From Buxus sempervirens (taxonomy: Eukaryota > Streptophyta > Magnoliopsida > Buxales > Buxaceae): DNA of 64,000 nt. The stretch is taken from contig OX387186.1 in the NCBI GenBank assembly GCA_947561395.2, forward strand, positions 6,809,888-6,873,887. The letters run 5' to 3'. Made by a program: the position numbers and the translations under genes. Below the pieces are notes generated by a model, which searched no databases, was not told where the DNA came from, and was given only the letters and a program-made list of their open reading frames with translations. Positions 47-29,050 of the stretch are shown piece by piece. How positions within the stretch are numbered: position 1 is the first letter of the stretch; every line of letters starts with the position of its first letter.

Positions 47-1741
47 TCACTTAGCTTGAACATCAATTTCTTCATCCACATCCACATACACTGATTTTTC
101 TTTCTTTTCACTCTCATTCCAATCCCAACATTCTTCTTCATTGAACTTTACATCCCTACTTACAATAAGCTTCTTGGTGATGGGATTGTACAACTTGTAT
201 GCTTTTGAATTCTCACTATAGCCAATAAAAATGCATTTTTCAGATTTCTCATCCAACTTCTTTCTTCTTTCATCCGGCACATGAGAATAAGCAACACTTC
301 CAAAAATTCTCAAGTGACCAACACATGGCTTTTGTCCACTCCAAGCTTCTTGAGGTGTCATATCTTGAACACTTTTGGATGAAGCACGATTCAAAAGATA
401 GATGGCACATGACACGGCTTCAGCCCAAAAAAATTTAGGCACTCTTTTAGCTTTCAACATGCTTCTAGCCAAGTCCATGATTGTTCTATTCTTCCTTTCG
501 GCAACTCCATTTTGTTGAGGTGTATACCGAACAGTAAATTGATGTCTAATACCATTTTCTTCTAGAAAAGCCTCAAATTCATTAGACATATATTCAACAC
601 CACGATTGGAACGCAAAGTTTTCAATTTTAAACCACTTTGCCGTTCAACTAAGGCCTTAAAGCCTTTAAAACATCCAAATGCTTCACATTTTTCTTTAAG
701 AAAAAATACCCATGTTTTTTTGCTATAATCATCAATAAACGTAATAAAATACCGGTTACCTCCAATGGAAGTGGTGTTCATAGGCCCACAAAGATCCGAA
801 TGTATTAGCTCAAGTGGATTCTTTGCTCTCCAAGCCTTCCCAATCGAAAAAGAGCTTCTATGATGCTTTCCAAGTGCACATCCTTCACAAATGTTAGGCA
901 TACCTTCCACAATATTCTTCTTGCACATCAAGGACAAAGTCTTGAAACTCAAATGTCCAAAACGAAAATGCCATAACCATGATTTGTCTTTAATAAAAGT
1001 GTTGAGACAAGAACTAACTTCACTTCTAAACTTCAAGGGAAACAACTTGTTTTGGGTCATTCTCACCTTGGCTATGAGGACCCCAATCTTGTCTTGGATT
1101 TTACAAATATCTTCATTGAAATGGACCTTATATCCCTTCAAAAGAAGTTGTCCAACACTCAAAAGATTGTGCTTGAGGCTGGGCACATAGAAAACATTAG
1201 AGATGCACTTGGCTCCTTTCTTTGTTTGAACAAGTATATCACCATTTCCTTTCACCGAAAGCTTTTTCTCATCACCGGTTCTCGCTTCACTTTGAATTGA
1301 TTCATCCAAGTGTACAAACACCTTCTTATTTCCCGTCATATGATTACTACATCCACTATCAACATACCAAATTTCATCCAAGGTAACTTCTTGTACATTG
1401 CAAGTAAGAAATAAAGTATCATCTTCTTTACCTTGTTCCTTCTCATGCATGAAACTTGAATCTTTCTTGTTTTCTTCCGCCAATCTCTTCCTACAATACT
1501 TTGCAATGTGACCAAATTTGTGACAATAGTGGCATTGAACATGTGCAAAAGAACGTCCTCTCCCTCTTCCTCTATATGAAGAAGACTCACATTCATCTTT
1601 TTGTTTTTCTTGATGTCTTCCTTCGTTGCTTCTTCCTCTTCCACGATAAGAACCTATTCCTCCTCTTCCTCTAGAACCTCCTCTAAAAGAGACTTGAGTT
1701 TGAAATGCTTGCTCTAGAGGTGAAGAATCATATTGCTTCAT
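47..1741 (-). pseudogene. Copia-1 gag-pol segment: zinc knuckle, protease, integrase
   Basis: Open frame of 564 residues. An Arg/Gly-rich stretch precedes a CX2CX4HX4C nucleocapsid knuckle (C70-C83). The aspartic protease motif is WYVDSGCSNHM (D128). Then come the pre-integrase zinc site (H-H-C-C, about 258-288) and the integrase core. Of the DDE triad, D316 (HSDLCGP) and E415 (NGVAERKN) are present, but the middle Asp is Asn (N379, in LRSNRGVEY). That change should abolish integrase catalysis. The frame closes at 47 before any reverse transcriptase motif. Copia identity is certain; loss of activity is inferred. Confidence 0.88.
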
Positions 1742-1758
1742 ACGGACACTACAAAAAA

Positions 1759-1922
1759 AGTGACTTTTAGCGGCGGACCAAAACCGCTGCTAAAAGTCAA
1801 GCGACCGCCGCTAAAAGTCCTGCTGAACGACGCCTGTCCGCCGATGATTCGCCTGTCGCTGATTCTTTCAGCGGCGGTCTTTTTTACTTTTAGTGGCGGT
1901 TCAAGACCGCCGCTAAAAGTCA
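1759..1922. repeat. CACTA-1 left subterminal repeats
   Basis: Several direct and inverted copies of a TTTTAGCGGCGG / CCGCCGCTAAAA unit within about 160 bases of the left terminus; the right end (about 5790-5855) has matching copies. In characterised CACTA elements such repeats bind the element-encoded DNA-binding protein. A pyrimidine-rich, gene-free stretch follows to about 2570. Confidence 0.8.
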
Positions 1923-2579
1923 CTTATTTTCAATTTTTTTTTCCCTAGCCAAATCGACCCACTTTTGTTTTAATTTTTACAACCAGACCCCAAACCCCCC
2001 AAATTTCATCGACCCACTTTTCTTTTAATTTTTACAACCAGACCCCCACCCCCCAAATTTCTATTTTTACAAACAAACCACCCAACCCCACTCGTACGTG
2101 TACCCGACCCCCCACCCAACCCCCATCTCTTTCTTTTTCTCTCTCTTGCCCCCAAGTGCCTAAATTACACGATTAAGCCAAATAAAATAAAAAAATTTAA
2201 TTTGCAATTTGAAAAAAAAAACCATTAATTTGAAACCAGTACTTTCCATTACAATATTTAGTACCAAGCCACAAAAAAAAAAAAAAAAACCTTAAACTTG
2301 TTTCTTGACATTTGATGGTTTAAAATTCATCTACAAACCTTATCAGAAAAAACAGAAAAAAAAAAAATTTTGCTCACAACCATGATTTGATGCTTCAAAA
2401 CCCATCTCCAATTCTTCAAGCTCCACTGCAAAAATAGTCATCTCCAAACCTTCAAATTCATCTACATAAGTAGGATTTCAATAGTATGATTGCGAAAGTC
2501 AAAAAATGTCCATTATTTTACCATCAAAATTTCTACTTTGTATAGTTGATACAGAATGAAAGTATCATGAGGTTTATAC

Positions 2580-3031
2580 CTGGATGGAATGAGAGAATAT
2601 AAGGAATTATCCATATCTGCAGTGGCAATGGGTTATTTCCGGACCATTCAAAAGCTCGAAGAACCTGTTATTATAAAAGAACAGAAGTCAAATAAAATCC
2701 CTCAAGAACTTGTAGAAAATCGACTTGCTATTTAAAACAACAAAGAGCACTATATGAAAAGAGAAGCACTGATGTGTGTTTCCTGATAAAATGCTTTCCT
2801 ATTAAGATGATTTCTTGTGCTTCGGAATACAGAAAATGAGACACGAACAAACAATTAGTTCTTAAATTAAAACAAGACAGACACGCTCCAAAAACCTAAT
2901 AGGCCGCAGTTCAAATTTCAAAGCACTTAATTTTCACTTGCCTGATGATTGTAGAGATAACGGCGTATCTCCTCTTGGTGTTCTTTTGATAAGACTGCAT
3001 TCAGTGGCCCTGCTATGGATAGAGTAATAAC
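2580..3031 (-). pseudogene. Captured exons of an oxidosqualene cyclase (cycloartenol synthase-like)
   Basis: Two exons with splice signals. Exon 2942-3031 reads [19 protein letters not shown] then [11 protein letters not shown], the family segment just before the NEDGGWG repeat. Exon 2580-2664 reads VLRAFEWSGNNPLPLQIW then IIPYILSFHPG, a conserved block further along the same enzyme. The exon between them is missing, so this is a partial copy. The upstream exon ends CAG|GCAAGT, a GC-type donor; the second ends CAG|GTATAA. The intact enzyme cyclises 2,3-oxidosqualene in sterol or triterpene synthesis; these exons lack the catalytic DCTAE region and cannot encode an enzyme. Family call is firm, subfamily is not. 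Confidence 0.82.
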
Positions 3032-3271
3032 CTGTTTCATTGAAATGTATGATTGAAACTCATAACAGAAGTTATGCCTAGGTCTATTCTACGTCTATAT
3101 TCAATACTATGCCCCACAACCAAATATAGCGAATCTGAAACCCAACAGCTTGGATCAAATTATTTTGGTTCGATCCAACTTTCAGGAAAACTTGTGGGTC
3201 TATTCTATAAGGACCCACAAAAGGGATCATTTGGTATGAGTAGAAACCAGACTTCTTAAGGATCAAATTAC

Positions 3272-3362
3272 CTGGGATTGGTGCTTGTCAATTCTTCGGA
3301 TCAAACTAGCAGCTGCTCGTTGATTCAAGTGTTCAACTGTTCTTTGACAGACAATACTGAAC
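3272..3362 (-). other. Exon-like segment of unrecognised origin inside CACTA-1
   Basis: Bounded on the minus strand by TACAG| and CAG|GTAATT. One frame is open through all 91 bases, ending TVEHLNQRAAASLIRRIDKH-QSQ. Its position among four captured gene fragments suggests another captured exon. I do not recognise the family. Confidence 0.45.
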
Positions 3363-3449
3363 CTGTACATCAGGAACATGATCCAATGTAACACCATCAT
3401 GTGACCCAAAAAGACCCGTTCTGTACGGACTCTAAACCCTGATAGGTGC

Positions 3450-3450
<1 letters not shown>

Positions 3451-3482
<32 letters not shown>
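3451..3482. repeat. Poly(C) tract, 32 bases
   Basis: Uninterrupted run of C between the unrecognised exon and a retroposon-like insert in CACTA-1. Long pure C/G runs are rare in plant DNA and error-prone to sequence, so the length is approximate. Confidence 0.9.
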
Positions 3483-3516
3483 ATCCTCCTTTTAGGGGAA
3501 CATCTATATTTTCATT

Positions 3517-3778
3517 GGTACAAGCATATATACAAGGAGGACAAGAGGACTTATGCTTCTAAATATCAGTTATACACTTAAGACTTGCAAGGCTGTTGGT
3601 ACTGTTTTGGTCCTCTATTTGGGGTCCCCTGTTATGTTATGAATATCAGTTATAATAGTTAATTTTTACAGCTTAAGGTTAGGTAGGAAAAGCATGTACA
3701 TCCTATACTTGTTTTTGTAATCTCTGTTGGAAATACTAATACAAACTTCCCTTCTTCCAAAAAAAAAAAAAGTACATA
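3517..3778 (+). mobile_element. Short retroposon-like insert (SINE or LINE 3' end)
   Basis: A roughly 260-base segment ends in an A-rich tail (about 3759-3771) and is flanked by the 9-base direct repeat ATTTTCATT (3508-3516 and 3779-3787). That is the layout left by target-primed retroposition. The few bases between tail and repeat are untidy and no pol III A/B box is evident, so the class is uncertain. Confidence 0.4.
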
Positions 3779-4050
3779 ATTTTCATTTTCTATCTTGAGA
3801 GGTCTTGTGAGTAAGTGAAGTAAGCGTTCAAAAAATGAAATGTATGATTGAAACTCATAATAGAAGTCAATACTAATTACTTATCAATACATTATTTACT
3901 TGTCATTACACTTACAATTATTTAGATTTGCAATACTAAGCTTCAATAGGAACAACGAGAAGTCATCTAACTTGTCATTGTTGAAAGACAAGGTAACTTG
4001 TTGAAGTTCTGCATTTATTTATATGTCATGCAACAAAAGGTGGACCGTAC

Positions 4051-4129
4051 CTGATTGCCTTTATATCTCTCTCTCTTGAGTTGCTTTGATCTTTGGCTGA
4101 AGGTTTTGCATCGCCAGAGTTGAATCAAC
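4051..4129 (-). pseudogene. Captured exon of an ALB3/Oxa1/YidC-type insertase
   Basis: Flanked by ACAG| and CAG|GTACGG, this 79-base exon reads VDSTLAMQNLQPKIKATQER. It matches the highly conserved segment of the thylakoid insertase ALB3 that in the family continues into Y-x-G-N-Q. Here a GAGA tetranucleotide is added inside a GA run, so the frame shifts to a stop right after the motif. The intact protein inserts light-harvesting proteins into thylakoid membranes; this is a non-functional exon copy inside CACTA-1. Confidence 0.78.
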
Positions 4130-4544
4130 CTGTATGTATAATGAATTTTATTATATGATGGCATGTAGCATTATCAAGAGAAATGGATAACAGAAAAGGA
4201 AACAGATTGGAGTTTAACATACCCAATGTTACATCATCTAAAATAAAAAATTAAAATATAGCATAAATTAATCAAAATCCTAATGCAAATAGTTAAAATA
4301 TATGATTAGCAGTTTATAAACTGGTTTGACATTGATACACAAAATCACAAAATATTTGACAAATAGTAGCAGCAGGCTAACCTTCTCACAAATCATTTGT
4401 GCGGCATCCAAAATATCACTTATGCTTCCCGTGCCCGTAGCACATGCTCTCTGCCCTTGCCACTCACCCCAGTAGTGCTCCTATCTCTCTCCATGCACCC
4501 ACTTACCCCTTAAAAAAAGTCTAGCAAGGGCACAATCAACTCAC

Positions 4545-4860
4545 CTTGACCTCTCTATGAGAAAGAAACTTCCCCAAGCTGTGGAGAACCATCCTCAAAT
4601 CTTCAACCTAAAAATGAAGATAGGAATTCTATTAGCCCTATTAAAATTTACCAAGAAGGATAATTGAAAGATTGTGTCATACCTTGATGTAGCCCACTCA
4701 GATTCAATTGAAAAACCTCAAATCTTCAACCTGGAAATGAAGATAGGAATTCTATTAGCCCTATACCAGTCTTAGCATAAAATTTACCAAGAAGGATAAT
4801 TGAAAGATTGTGTCATACCTTGATGTAGCCCACTCGGTTTCGATCGAAAAACCGGAATGC
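4545..4860 (-). pseudogene. Captured EF-hand exons of an RSA1/EMB1579 (CARP1/DBC1-like) gene
   Basis: Exon 4819-4860 reads AFRFFDRNRVGYIK and exon 4545-4607 reads VEDLRMVLHSLGKFLSHREV-K. Both have consensus acceptors and donors (AAG|GTATGA, AAG|GTGAGT) and splice in frame. The joined peptide matches the degenerate EF-hand of the large plant nuclear protein known in Arabidopsis as RSA1/EMB1579, a CARP1/DBC1 relative; I place it from memory of that family. The intron between the exons has a partial tandem duplication that includes a damaged second copy of the first exon. Only a few per cent of the host protein is represented. Confidence 0.6.
4593..4852. repeat. Tandem duplication of about 123-137 bases
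   Basis: Segment 4593-4715 is repeated at 4716-4852 with substitutions and a short indel. Both copies include the intron 5' splice site and part of the 42-base exon. The left copy of the exon is degraded. Confidence 0.85.
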
Positions 4861-5037
4861 CTGTAACAAATATGAAAAGCAGATCAAAGAAACTAATTAA
4901 TATCCCCAATTAACATGCACGAGCAGAAGACAGTACAGAGGAAATGCAATAGAAATGTCCAAGATAATACCTACAACAGTTCCTTGTCAACAGCAGCCTC
5001 CTTCACGATTCATTCCATTCTCTATCTCTCACTTCGC

Positions 5038-5667
5038 TTATATCACTTTCAGGCTTCTGCTCTGTCTCTGTAGTTTTCTTGTCAGTCTTGTCCTGCTTGG
5101 AACTTTCTTTTTCATATTTGTATATGAAGTGCTACAATCATGTACAGAGCACTTCTCTCCGAGGTTCCTCAACACCATATGCAATGCACTAGCTGATATC
5201 AAGCCATTCTTGTCCTTATCGTACATCTCAAATGCATCCTGGAGTTCCATGGGCTCCATCTCGCCCTTTGTGTCGCCATTCACTCCTCCGCAGTGAAGAT
5301 CCGCGAACTCATTCAGATCGATGAATCCATCGCTGTCGGTATTGATCTCCTCCATCATCCACTTTGACTCCTCTGGCGCCACCTCATTGCTGAGAGCGCG
5401 GAGCACATCGACGAGCTCTGCGGCGGAGATCTTCCCATCGCCATTGCTGTCGAACCGTTTGAAAACCTTCTCTAGCTCCTCCTCATTGTCCAAATACACA
5501 GAAGGTTTCGAACTAGGGTTTCCATTCGCACTTTCTAGTATCGTCTCTCTCGAAACGTTGTGCTTTCTCCGGTCAGGATTTCGATTGAAGAAGGTCTTGT
5601 GGCTGTTCAGTTTGGTTTGGTTTGGAGGCTCGTTTATAGAAGCGATGGAAGGGTTTACACTGGTCAC
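5038..5667 (-). CDS. Calmodulin-like EF-hand ORF captured in CACTA-1
   Basis: An unbroken 209-residue frame. Loop 1 (D73-E84, [12 protein letters not shown]) has all Ca2+ ligands. Loop 2 (109-120, [12 protein letters not shown]) has Asn in place of the first Asp. Loop 3 (150-161, [12 protein letters not shown]) has lost the position-12 Glu. The family motif LGEKCSV-DC leads into a fourth loop in the usual four-EF-hand CML, but here homology stops at about residue 178 and a basic 31-residue tail of unrelated sequence follows. It is therefore a CML26/27-type coding sequence truncated before EF-hand 4, inside a transposon. Such proteins are cytosolic Ca2+ sensors; two altered loops and a lost fourth suggest weak function at best. 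Whether it is expressed is unknown. Confidence 0.62.
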
Positions 5668-5870
5668 AACGCGTTTTTAGCCGCGAGAGAGACGGAGAGA
5701 AGATAGCTTTCGCAAGGAGAGAGATTAGGGAAAGAGAGGTGGAGAGAAGATAGAGAGAATAGGTCAGAAAGATATGGAATGGTTTAGGATGACTTTTAGC
5801 GGCGGTCATTAAAAGACCGCTGCTAAAGGTCTACTAAACCCCGCCGCTGAAACCCGGTTTTTTTGTAGTG

Positions 5871-6477
5871 GGAGTTCATGGGATTGAAGTGATCCCAACA
5901 AACTCTCCACCGACAATGTGGACAAATCTTTTGATTCTTCAATTGCAACAACAATGGACTCAAATTTTCGAGTCAAGCTTCTCAGAATTTTCTCCACAAT
6001 TCTTTGATCTTCAACTTTCTCTCCATTTACCCTCAATTGATTCACAATGGAAACCACCCGATTAAAATAATCTTCAATGGATTCCGAATCCTTCATCTTT
6101 AGTGTCTCAAACTCACTTCTAAGGGCTTGTAATCTCACCATCTTTACTTTATCATCACCTTTGTATGATGCATAAAGTACATCCCATGCTTCCTTAGCTG
6201 AAATCACCAACGAAATCCTTTCAAAGATAACCTCATCTACCGCTTGATAGATGAAAAACAATGCTTTCTTGTTCTTCTTACGATTCTCTTTCAACTCAGT
6301 GAGTTGCTGTTGAGTGAGGTTGTTGAATCAACTAGTTCTACATATCCGGTCTCAACAATATCCCATAAATCTTGAGATCCATACAATACCTTCATTTGGA
6401 TGCTCCATTGGTTGTAATTCTTGCCATTGAATCAAGGAATTAAGTTGTGGCTGCAACATGTTGTTGTTGGAAGCCAT
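5871..6477 (-). pseudogene. Copia-1 gag
   Basis: Starts ATGGCTTCC at 6477, just after the primer site, and encodes a UBN2-type Copia gag (WDVLYASYKGDDKVKMVRLQ, then YFNRVVSIVNQLRVNGE). The frame breaks at least twice near the start: once around 6435 before NGKNYNQWSIQMK, and once around 6325 where a missing base separates ELVDSTT from the LTELKENRKK block. The rest is open up to the CACTA-1 junction, across which the frame continues into the zinc-knuckle region. Confidence 0.85.
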
Positions 6478-6506: not shown

Positions 6507-6509
6507 CTT

Positions 6510-6907
6510 TGTTGGGATGAAACCAACAGGTTGGAGGGATGAGGACAAAAAACTCAAGAGAAAGTGTGCTCTTGATGCTAGAAACTTCAAGAAAAGAAGC
6601 CTGACATATTACCCTACAATAATGGCCGGAAATTTCATTGATTCATTTCATGAGGAAGAAGATACAAGACTTAGTTTCTCCTACTACATTCAAAAACGAG
6701 ATTTGACTAACTTAACTAATCAACACATTCCAACACAATAAACCCAACTACTTAAGCATCAAACATAAAGATAGCAACCAACTATTACATTCTCCAAGTG
6801 ACAATTAATACTAGCTAACAACTCCCACTAGAGACTAGCTTATAGACCATAGCAACTATACTCAAACTTAATACACCCAAGAAAGTGTCTAGCTTAAACT
6901 TCTAACA
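6510..6907 (-). repeat. Copia-1 5' LTR
   Basis: 398 bases bounded by TGTTGGG and TCTAACA (inverted TGTT/AACA ends). The inner end abuts the primer site. The outer end abuts GLR coding sequence that matches the second GLR copy. Confidence 0.85.
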
Positions 6908-9255
6908 TCCTCAACATCTGCCGCTGGTGTTGAAGCTGGAAACTGACCATGGGACTGTTGGGATCGAAATTCTAACATTCTAACATCCTCTACATCCTCA
7001 ACATATGGGACTGTTGGGATCGAAATTTCCTTAGTAAGTTAACAAGGTATAGTAGAAAGGCAATCGTCGAAGTACACCCACTGAGAAGAAACAGTCCCCA
7101 GAAGCTATGGAGGGTTAAGATTTCACTTTCAAACCTTGTTGATTTTGAACCACCCTGGGACAGAGACCACTTCTTTTCTATTCTCGCTATCGTCCCATTC
7201 TCTGATAGTCTCAGAATAGCTTCTGAAAGGTCGGTTGCTATAGGAGAGCCTTGTGGAAAGACCTGCAAGTATAACATAAGATGTGAATCAGAGCAACTCT
7301 TATTTATTGTTTTGCTTTTTCTGTGTGTTAGTTACCATTTTGCCAAATCTAGCATAAAATACCTATTCATGAATATATAGGTTCTCCCAAACTACTTACA
7401 AATCCGAATCCTCCAAATCTGTAGGTCGGTTTTATGGCAGTATATCGTCCACGGTTCTCGGGGCGAGAGAGGTAGTATTTTTGATAGTTAAGTTCAATGA
7501 AGGCAGCTTTGACAGCTCCATTTCTGAATTCCTCTGGGAAGTCATTTTCACTTTTAACACGCTTTATGTTCTTTTCATTGAAACCAACAACTTCTTGTAA
7601 GTAATTCGTAACAAATGGGTCGCCATCACAAGCAACAGCTGCATTTTCCTTCTTCAGAGATTCAACCTCTATCATGGTTGGTTCAAGGCGCTGGACTGTG
7701 AGCAGGGACGTGAGACTGGCAGTGTAACTGGAGTTCAAGACCAACACCACGAAGAGCCACACCACCATGACAGCTTTAGTATAGTTGCTACGAACATTTT
7801 CTCCTGTAGGATGGATTAATATGAGTATGAAATCATGAATTCCTAAGAAAATGGGACAGACATTTTATCTTATGAATTTCTCAAAAAGAAAAAGAAATGG
7901 TGGATTGTGCTTACTGTGTGCAAAAAAAAGAGTGGAGATGGTGAACCACAAGGCACTAAAAAATTGATTCCTCCGTGGTCCTCTGAACTCTGGATTGGAT
8001 CCATGTTCCAAAAACCATACAATGAACATTGTGTAGATGACCATGGCACCTGTCATTAGCCACACCTCTGTGGTGAAAGGCTTCATGAACATCCATGCCT
8101 TCTGAGATTCTTCCGACTTCAGCGGGACTAGCAAAGAAAGGCCGGATTCTACAAATGGCTGAGTGAATTCCACGTATTTAGTTCGATTGGCTTGGATTGT
8201 TTTCATCACCGACCACGGCATCAAAACTCTTCCATCAACAACAACGCACAAAACGAATTACACAATCTTTAATAAATCAAAGAATAAGGTGGCAAAGAAG
8301 AAACCAAAAGAGCAAAATAAGATCGTGAAAAGTGAAAAACATTCCCAGTCCTGTCATTACAGAGTCAAAACTAATGCATTTGAAAGGGGCTCTCTCATGG
8401 GGATTAGTCAACTTTTACAAATTATCCGAATTTCATGGAAGACTTCTCATCAAACTATCATGTCCACAAACGAATTTTCATTCTGGTTCATTGTCTGGAG
8501 GTAAGCTGAAAGTTACAAGAGACGCTCAATGATATCCAGACCAATGTCCTAAAACCCAGACCATGTATAGAACAGGAGAGGGGACTAGTGGTTCAAACAA
8601 AGAGAACTGGGATGGATCACAAACAGTAGTAAAAATCCAAAATATTACAGGTCAATCCAGTTGACACCCCTTTTTACCATTTTTTAACTGTCTATATTGG
8701 TTTTATAATCAAAGAAAGACAAGCATTTGAAATGAACCAGGGAAGAATCTGTTGACATTTTGCAACCAGTGAATCCGGTCTGGTTTTATTTGGTCAGTCA
8801 CCTTCATCCACATGGATTGTAGACTGAAAACCAAATCATCCAGAAGAAGCTTAAAAATGTGTGTTTATGAAGCAAGGGAAGATCTGTGAGGCTTAAATCA
8901 ACATATAGTTATGAATCAGTACCTTGTCATGGACCCGATAGACGAGATCGTCATAGGAGCCATTGAACGGCTTATATTCAATGACTAGCGTATAGTTTAA
9001 GAGCTTCACAGCAGCCTCAAAAACATCAATGCAGAAACCTGAAACAAACGGCTTGTTTGGATTCTCAGTTGGCATCACCTTGACATACTTATCGAATATG
9101 GCATTACCCTGAACGCCAATCTTCATTGGCTTTGTATCAGTAGGCATCACCCATCCTTTTGGGACTTCTTGAAAGTCCCCTGGCCAATCCACGGGACCAG
9201 ATGAGATGCCCATCTTCACACCTCCATTCCCCTGATCCCTACTCTTGTTCACAGG
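6908..9255 (-). pseudogene. GLR2-type glutamate receptor-like pseudogene, truncated at both ends
   Basis: Exon pieces, 5' to 3': 8923-9255 (S1 ligand-binding half, [19 protein letters not shown]), 7915-8228 (rest of S1, M1 and pore, [16 protein letters not shown]), 7400-7803 (M3 with [17 protein letters not shown], and S2) and 6908-7262 (end of S2, M4). Homology to the second copy stops at 9255 beside a MITE, so the whole amino-terminal domain is gone. Exon 7915-8228 has one extra base after VVGD relative to the second copy (314 against 313 bases), which shifts the frame. The last exon carries a short local duplication around 6950-7022 and is cut at 6908 by Copia-1. Functional channels are tetramers gated by amino acids; this copy cannot be. 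Confidence 0.9.
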
Positions 9256-9259
9256 TATT

Positions 9260-9612
9260 GGTAAAGTTTTGAATTTTAACTTTTAGTATACCTTTATCAA
9301 AATAATTAATTTTTAGTGTAATTTCATTATTATAAATCACCTATTCCAAGAATGCCCTTACATCACTTATCCAAATGGCTTGTACAAGTCATTTATTCAT
9401 AGTACAAGTCATTTTATTGACTTGTACAAGTTAATTTATTGACTTGTACAAGTCTAAAATGATTTGTACAAGTCAATTTATTGCTTATAGAAGTATCAGA
9501 AGTAAGTTGTATAAGGGTATTTTTGAAAGAATCTTTTTGTAATAGTGGAATGGTATTAAAAATTAATTATTTTGATAAAGATGTACTAAAAGTTAAAACT
9601 CAAAACTTTGCC
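9260..9612. mobile_element. MITE with ~60-bp terminal inverted repeats
   Basis: Left end GGTAAAGTTTTGAATTTTAA is the near-perfect reverse complement of the right end ..AACTCAAAACTTTGCC, and similarity runs about 60 bases inward. The interior is AT-rich with several copies of TTGTACAAGTC and no coding sequence. No clear target duplication was found, so the superfamily is open. It lies exactly where GLR homology ends. Confidence 0.8.
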
Positions 9613-23984: not shown

Positions 23985-24030
23985 CACTACAAAAAATTAA
24001 TTTTTTAGTGACATAAATTTTGCGGTGAAC
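23985..24030 (+). other. CACTA-like terminus without a visible partner
   Basis: CACTACAAAAAATTAA followed by TTTTTTAGTGAC, typical of a CACTA left end but with different subterminal sequence from CACTA-1 and CACTA-2. I found no matching TTTTTTGTAGTG end up to 27044 nor in the flanks after 49345. It may mark the left end of an element that carries the HMA1 and SCYL1 exons. Confidence 0.5.
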
Positions 24031-27525: not shown

Positions 27526-27867
27526 CTGCATATACAAAAACCATAATTAGGTGGACCGAAAATCCTGTAAAATACCTGTAAAATATCTCATTTCGTAACA
27601 AATTTTATAACAAATAGAGCAAAACAATTACAAAGAAGAAAGTGAATTAAAAGAAATTCTAATAAAATTAAAATACTCTAAACATTCATGTCATATAAAT
27701 TAAACTAAAGAACAGTAAATTAATGGTTTCCATTAACAAGTGAAATTGCAACTGGTATCAATTTAATAGCCCTGCATGAAAATAACAATGAATCATGCGT
27801 CACTAAAATTATAAGTAGACAAATCAATTTAGCCAAAAAAAATTAATATATATATATATATATACAA
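27526..27867. other. CACTA-2 left non-coding part
   Basis: AT-rich, no gene, ending in a TA dinucleotide run at about 27846-27866 that borders the pararetrovirus fragment. Confidence 0.5.
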
Positions 27868-28301
27868 AGTCACCTCACTTACAATCAAATAAGAAGAATT
27901 CCTGAAGAAAAGGAAGACGAAGCATCCACATCCCAAGAAATAGAAGAAGTAGGAGAACAAGAAAAATTCTTAGATATAATTTCACAAATCAATTTTAGAA
28001 AATGGTTAATTAAAATCAATTTAATTGTCAACAATGAATTCAAGTTTGAAACAATCGCCTTAGTTGATAGCGGTGCAGACCTCAATTGTATTCAAGAAGG
28101 TATAATACCTTCAAAATACTTTGAGAAAACCAAAGAAAAACTCCATACGGCAAGTGGAGTTGGTATGAAAATCAATTACAAATTGTCAAATGTACACATC
28201 TGCAATGACAATATTTGCTTTAAAACCCCATTTATTTTAATTAGTGATCTTAGTAAACAAGTCATTTTAGGCACTCCCTTCTTAGCATTAATCCAGCCAT
28301 A
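27868..28301 (+). pseudogene. Endogenous pararetrovirus (Caulimoviridae) protease fragment
   Basis: A frame open from about 27870 contains a retropepsin-like motif, VDSGADLNCIQEG (catalytic Asp at 28066-28068), followed by KTPFILISD and ILGTPF, an arrangement typical of the polyprotein of endogenous caulimovirids of the florendovirus/petuvirus type. The upstream part is acidic. Reverse transcriptase, movement and coat segments are absent: about 430 bases only, opposite in strand to the CACTA-2 genes. TA dinucleotide runs bound it on both sides (27846-27866 and 28301-28321). A decayed integrated fragment with no capacity to encode a virus. LTR-element protease is the alternative. Confidence 0.7.
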
Positions 28302-29050
28302 TATATATATATATATATATATAGAACCGAAGCTATCTTGTGTTACTCACCTCAAATAATAAGAATGCATGTCTGTCTAGCTAAAATCCCGAGGAGGACT
28401 ATCATTTGCAGACGTTTCGCTAGGAGACTATAAATTGTAAGAAAGATCATTAAGTGTGGTATTTAAATATAAAGATGATATGAATTTGTGCTATATTTAT
28501 TTTTGTAAGGCATTTATATAATACCTGTGTTTGACGTTTACTCATCATGAAGTTTCTAAATTCTTCAAATTCTCTGGCATGCTGTGCAATAGTTGCTTCA
28601 ATTGTTTGTCGTTGTCGCATCTCTTCTTCTAGCCGCTCCTCTGTACGTTGCAATTGTTCTCGCATCCTATTAAATTCATCCATATCGACATACCGAGATG
28701 ACGTACTTGAGGATGCACTACCACCCCACAGCCTAGTGGGCGTGTGGTCTAACCCACAACACCGCACCCTGCCATGTGTGTCATGCCCCATGACTTGAGT
28801 ATATACATCATCTCGGGCTGTCGAATCTGGCGTGCCTTGTTCCATGATAGTTCGCATTTGATCCTGAAAAAAATATTTATGCAATCATTGAGTTATCAAA
28901 ATAGATGCTAATAAAGTTATTCGTATGCTACAAGTATACCTACAATAAGAGGAAATAACTTACTATCTTGTCGGCTGCTTCATCATTGATTGGCGTGCCA
29001 TCTTTTCAAGTATGCGTTTTTATAAAAGTCTCAGCACGGCCCGCCAATCC

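Follow-up and report, generated by a model that had tools for sequence, protein, structure and literature searches.

A Pack-CACTA element of Buxus sempervirens with pieces of at least five host genes, probably assembled stepwise from older gene-carrying elements

The soybean element Tgm-Express1, as described in the available part of its report, is a 5.7-kb CACTA element with five unrelated host gene fragments, for which at least 12 distinct transcripts, 11 with cassette exons, were reported (PMC1947982). In Pack-CACTA elements, coding DNA can derive from several loci, above all in maize, and the accessible text of the study describes its acquisition via the joint movement of neighbouring insertions (PMC8903248), a model also covered in a review seen in part (PMC13317346). 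We analyzed a 64,000-nt stretch of the Buxus sempervirens genome (the window; assembly GCA_947561395.2, contig OX387186.1, positions 6,809,888 to 6,873,887) and found a CACTA element with host gene fragments at window positions 1747-5870. We consider it probable that this is a non-autonomous Pack-CACTA that holds pieces of five or more host genes and was built up stepwise, finally by the joining of two older gene-carrying elements.

The element and its ends are as follows (TSD, target site duplication; TIR, terminal inverted repeat).

1747..5870, minus strand (the cargo strand): complete non-autonomous CACTA element of the Pack-CACTA type, recognized by its ends, length, TSD, and four further full-length copies
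1744..1746: left TSD, GGA (by sequence)
1747..1930, plus strand: left terminal region, TIR and subterminal TTTTAGCGGCGG repeats
5786..5870, minus strand: right terminal region, TIR and subterminal repeats
5871..5873: right TSD, GGA (by sequence)

The element spans 4124 bp, is flanked by GGA at both ends, begins with CACTACAAAAAAA, and ends with TTTTTTTGTAGTG. Its TIR is 30 nt long (83% identity) and is accompanied by more inverted and direct subterminal repeats, in agreement with a first-pass annotation of this DNA, which had described the termini and TSD as clear. With at most one mismatch, TTTTAGCGGCGG occurs 34 times in the 64-kb window (expected, 0.12 as the mean of 100 shuffles; maximum, 2); eight of these occurrences are in the two ends of the element, and 26 are in the ends of a second CACTA element (27045-49345). 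The pattern CACTACAAGAAAA (133 forward and 115 reverse matches, versus 25 and 33 in controls) counts another terminal variant and was set aside.

No transposase match was found in the eight pieces of the window copy that were scanned with Pfam. The longest stop-free stretch on the minus strand is calmodulin-like (212 codons). The element thus combines the features of a Pack-CACTA: CACTA-type TIRs and subterminal repeats, a 3-bp TSD, no transposase of its own, gene fragments with parents, and copies at separate sites. Two other classes were rejected. Pack-MULEs have long TIRs and duplications of 8-11 bp and were excluded by the 30-nt TIR and the 3-bp duplication; Helitrons, which are without TIRs and without target duplication, were excluded by the presence of both.

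The cargo comprises the following stretches (CML, calmodulin-like; ACP, acyl carrier protein; OSC, oxidosqualene cyclase).

5134..5685, minus strand: CML fragment, including sequence 5' of the parent's start codon; start codon lost, 3' part missing; closest gene at C10:33497274-33497824 (88%)
4513..5113, minus strand: RSA1-like fragment that includes introns and a tandem duplication (exons at 4819-4860 and 4545-4607); parent gene within C6:46932500-46936500
4428..4512, minus strand: sequence common with CML- and RSA1-carrying elements on C21 beyond the RSA1 match, to the end of similarity
4318..4437, minus strand: 3-oxoacyl-ACP synthase fragment, exon 4382-4437 with its own donor; parent in C8:1219000-1222500 (95% over 120 bp)
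3874..4318, minus strand: ALB3 fragment in which exon 4051-4129 keeps its two splice sites; parent gene within C1:67327683-67331035
3588..3870, no strand assigned: untyped repeat-like fragment, not a named gene, 93% identical to part of C14:34722500-34725800
3272..3362, minus strand: exon-like stretch, unnamed, bordered by canonical splice sites in the window copy; no parent found
2454..3044, minus strand: OSC fragment (exons 2942-3031 and 2580-2664) without the intervening exon of the parent; parent near C11:2184 kb

All five named fragments are on the minus strand and include intron sequence. The CML fragment matches the C10 gene over 552 bp; this gene is an open stretch of 170 codons with four EF-hand matches, compared with three in the element. 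The fragment has no start codon at the parent's start position and none before the EF-hand domain, and its frame then enters RSA1-like sequence. The RSA1-like fragment (RSA1 being what we take to be the name of the gene) is 91% and 86% identical in two pieces, introns included, to the gene at C6:46.93 Mb. An exon and intron of this fragment are tandemly duplicated (4593-4853), also in the C21 elements; the parent gene is apparently single there. For the synthase gene at C8:1.22 Mb, two neighbouring exons were scanned; one matched ketoacyl-synt (E 4e-12), and the other scored below the cut-off (0.00069). The peptide of the synthase exon in the element, presumably of the mitochondrial type, matches the structure of a 3-oxoacyl carrier protein synthase (1w0i; E 0.0082). 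The ALB3 fragment is 97% and 95% identical to the gene at C1:67.33 Mb, in which two parent exons were seen and which gave a 60KD_IMP match below the curated cut-off (E 7.7e-5). The OSC fragment is 95% identical to the locus at C11:2.184 Mb, which has one in-frame stop within the family match, and 93% identical to another locus, on C8, so that the C11 locus is a candidate donor copy. The first kept OSC exon matches a solved terpene cyclase structure (E 0.0041).

The first-pass annotation had proposed the capture of pieces of at least four host genes from genomic DNA, with intron boundaries kept in most of them and a shared orientation. Parents with introns or flanking sequence were located for the calmodulin-like, RSA1-like, ALB3, and OSC pieces it had named, and the orientation is common to all five named fragments. 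The fifth gene, represented by the synthase exon, had not been named there, and the calmodulin-like open reading frame it had listed is a gene fragment, truncated as described above. The search for parent loci that it had suggested located parents for five fragments and none for exon 3272-3362. A common strand for five fragments has a probability of 1 in 16 if orientations are random and is thus weak evidence of a rule; in one relative, a Rab-type GTPase piece is on the strand opposite to the common arm.

Exon 3272-3362 had no Pfam match at E values up to 1, and a solved-structure search gave one match (E 0.4). In a genome protein search for its parent, all 11 matches belonged to the element family (five composite copies and six relatives). 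For the repeat-like fragment 3588-3870, Pfam found nothing in the parent-side frame on C14; judged by eye, it might be the end of a long interspersed nuclear element. The window also has a run of 32 C at 3451-3482, and the longest C run varies from 15 to 32 across the five copies.

A genome search with window positions 2400-5700 as the query gave 61 matches (from 40 of 73 candidates scored). Looking for the element elsewhere, another suggestion of the first-pass annotation, revealed four further loci with the whole cargo.

C8:20.01 Mb: sister copy, 4591 bp, TSD CCC
C11:5.91 Mb: sister copy, 4689 bp, TSD TCA
C1:53.20 Mb: sister copy, 4606 bp, TSD TTA
C4:21.04 Mb: sister copy, 4559 bp, TSD TAA/TTA

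Because the flanks of the C1 and C4 copies are nearly identical (99.5% and 99.7% over 1265 and 730 bp), these two represent one insertion that was duplicated later, and the five copies represent four insertion sites. Pairwise Kimura two-parameter distances among the five copies (ten pairs) were 0.0096-0.0156 (~1.4%). Assuming 0.7-1.3e-8 substitutions per site and year, copies at different sites diverged about 0.5-1.0 million years ago. The window copy has lost ~520-530 bp of ALB3 intron sequence at 3961, which is kept by the four sisters and the ALB3 gene.

Other loci carry parts of the cargo, and for this reason the element appears to have arisen by fusion of older elements that already held gene pieces. 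Three loci on C21, within ~165 kb, have the CML and RSA1 pieces, with the later cargo absent in the stretches compared. One of them is a complete CACTA element of 2044 bp (type A; TSD ATT) with CML and RSA1 pieces and no later cargo. Near one of the three loci (C21:12917586-12921152), we also observed a frame for a small secreted cysteine-rich protein, which we take to resemble an antimicrobial peptide. The opposite part of the cargo, here called the OSC arm, is distributed separately.

1747..3566, minus strand: arm common, whole or partly, to several other CACTA elements, of which the two bounded ones differ in 5' cargo

Among the loci fetched, fourteen others share this arm, in whole or in part, without CML and RSA1 in the stretches compared. 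Their similarity starts at cargo-strand position 2305 or 2348 in six loci, 3080 in seven, and 2979 in one. Two of the fourteen were bounded at both ends (type B): a 4280-bp element at C1:7.70 Mb (TSD GGA), whose 5' cargo includes the Rab-type GTPase piece mentioned above, and a 4919-bp element at C8:17.39 Mb (TSD TAA/TAG), whose 5' cargo is unlike that of the former. A locus on C22 has a longer ALB3 piece that meets the repeat at exactly the same breakpoint, together with parts of the OSC arm. Both arms occur together only in the five composite copies among the 61 matches.

The history that we propose starts from what is observed: the ends and duplications, the copies and parents, type-A and type-B elements that exist separately, and one breakpoint common with a further element. 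An older small CACTA (type A) would have carried the CML and RSA1-like pieces, and other CACTAs (type B) would have carried the OSC arm. In the last step, a type-A 5' arm, the short synthase piece, the ALB3 piece, and a type-B 3' arm would have become one unit between two outer ends, with joining, we infer, by excision via the outer ends of neighbouring elements. The composite unit would then have inserted at four or more sites, most likely mobilized in trans by a CACTA transposase that recognized the TTTTAGCGGCGG repeats. The second CACTA in the window (27045-49345; 22.3 kb; TSD ATT) is 21 kb from the element, has the same subterminal motif, and matches tnp2 transposase (E 2.6e-96), DUF4216, and DUF4218; we infer that an element such as this is the likely source of the transposase that moved the composite. 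Inside it, a retroviral-type protease match was seen at 27847-28356; other CACTAC-type ends, with partners not identified, lie at window positions 23985 and 36559.

The distances between the cargo and its parents order the captures as the nesting of the elements does, with the exception of the very short synthase piece. They were largest for CML (0.127; 44/383) and RSA1 (0.092; 23/266), followed by OSC (0.046 and 0.053), the repeat 3588-3870 (0.049), and ALB3 (0.028; 12/440). The distance between sister copies (~0.014) is below all of these.

Several points weigh against this history. The distance of the synthase piece (0.052; 6/120) is at odds with a late capture, unless chance explains it. 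An unrelated stretch stands in the C21 elements where the window element has CML/RSA1 sequence, and hence no C21 element found is a direct donor. Distances from the window element to the complete type-A copy conflict, at 0.083 (30/386) for CML versus 0.033 (15/469) for RSA1. No adjacent A and B elements were found among the candidates scored. No 5' end was found for the C22 locus, which may therefore not be a complete element. Finally, the C10 CML gene was the best found, and at 12% distance it may not be the true donor.

Two other routes to the same structure were weighed. Each fragment may have been copied into one evolving element by faulty gap repair after excision, with template switching and no fusion. 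The junctions are compatible with such stepwise filling, as ~7 bp are common at the type-A/synthase junction and no clear overlap exists at the synthase/ALB3 junction, and so are the shortness of the cargo pieces and their origin from several contigs. However, simple filling does not predict that both halves occur apart in complete elements with their own opposite ends, and we regard it as unlikely. The composite could likewise have arisen if two CACTA elements at different loci had exchanged arms by recombination or conversion, and a 3' arm common to elements with different 5' cargo is what such an exchange would leave. A simple exchange at a common stretch does not explain the two host gene pieces and the repeat between the arms, and this route seems to us distinctly improbable. 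The joining of two gene-carrying elements weakens one claim of the first-pass annotation, that a single CACTA element had captured everything: its multi-gene cargo stands, and self-capture of the whole is not required, given that relatives hold parts of the cargo and fusion is likelier.

We also considered whether the exons form a working chimeric gene under selection. Splice dinucleotides are kept at 59 of 60 positions (six exons in five copies; alignment-based count), and the cargo, the surrounding Copia element, and a neighbouring channel gene are all on one strand, both of which speak for such a gene. The kept acceptors are AG, and donors are GT in five exons; the sixth has a GC donor that is native to its parent genes. 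The sole loss is the acceptor of the unnamed exon in the C1 copy. Against a working gene, there is no start codon before the calmodulin-like domain, and the CML frame (212 codons in four of the five copies and 132 in the fifth) continues out of frame into RSA1-like sequence. When the exons of the window copy are joined in order, the frame that opens in the RSA1-like exon meets a stop within the ALB3 exon. The two OSC exons and the unnamed one share a frame, for which the joined chain has no start codon. Selection for a working gene is thus very improbable, and chimeric-gene function was ruled out as the principal explanation by the missing start codon, the early stop, and the frame broken in one of five copies. 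The first-pass annotation had suggested that a single transcript could splice the exons into a chimera. Since the splice sites are kept, chimeric transcripts are possible; a useful chimeric protein is unlikely, judging from the reading frames. The cargo is probably passenger sequence that would yield, at most, spliced non-coding or truncated chimeric transcripts.

The window copy is inserted in the gag region of a Copia element (LTR, long terminal repeat).

50..1744, minus strand: Copia gag-integrase reading frame, left flank
5872..6327, minus strand: Copia gag reading frame, right flank
6507..6907, minus strand: Copia LTR, 97.8% identical to its partner, which lies upstream of the window; TSD TCCTC (5 bp)

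The Copia flanks keep one frame across the target site. The two LTRs differ at 9 of 401 aligned positions, which at the above rates dates the Copia to about 0.9-1.6 million years ago; the CACTA element would have inserted no earlier than that. Pieces of a ligand-gated channel gene are present on the minus strand at 6993-9282, with the Copia inserted just past the apparent gene end. The one piece scanned matched Lig_chan (E 3.2e-14); its identification as glutamate receptor-like and the extent of the gene were judged by eye.

The gathering of pieces of several genes by CACTA elements has mostly been inferred so far, and the capture order and the joining model are directly testable here. Tentatively, the genome may keep relatives of the separate halves along with several fusion products, with each building step legible, and the window copy, in sense orientation downstream of a Copia LTR, may give spliced chimeric RNA. 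A further caution is that annotation can take exon-like stretches of such elements for genes. A literature search found no description of this element, which is not proof of its absence from print.

The kind of element is already known, with Tgm-Express1 as the direct precedent, and what is added is the traceable assembly. In the portions of the reports available, Tgm-Express1 resembles the present element in being a CACTA of similar size with exon and intron pieces of five unrelated genes and kept splice sites, a likeness of structure. It differs in that it occupies an intron of a host gene, whose promoter drives its transcription, and spliced chimeras were shown for it, whereas the present element lies in Copia gag; here, the parents, five copies, and partial relatives are found in one genome. 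Pack-MULEs and gene-carrying Helitrons likewise capture and join host gene fragments but differ in their ends and target duplication. The Pack-CACTAs of Arabidopsis and crops, as far as the accessible text describes them, are also non-autonomous, with CACTA ends and captured coding DNA from several loci per element (PMC8903248). By comparison with these, the Buxus genome has complete elements that carry parts of each half separately, together with parents for five fragments.

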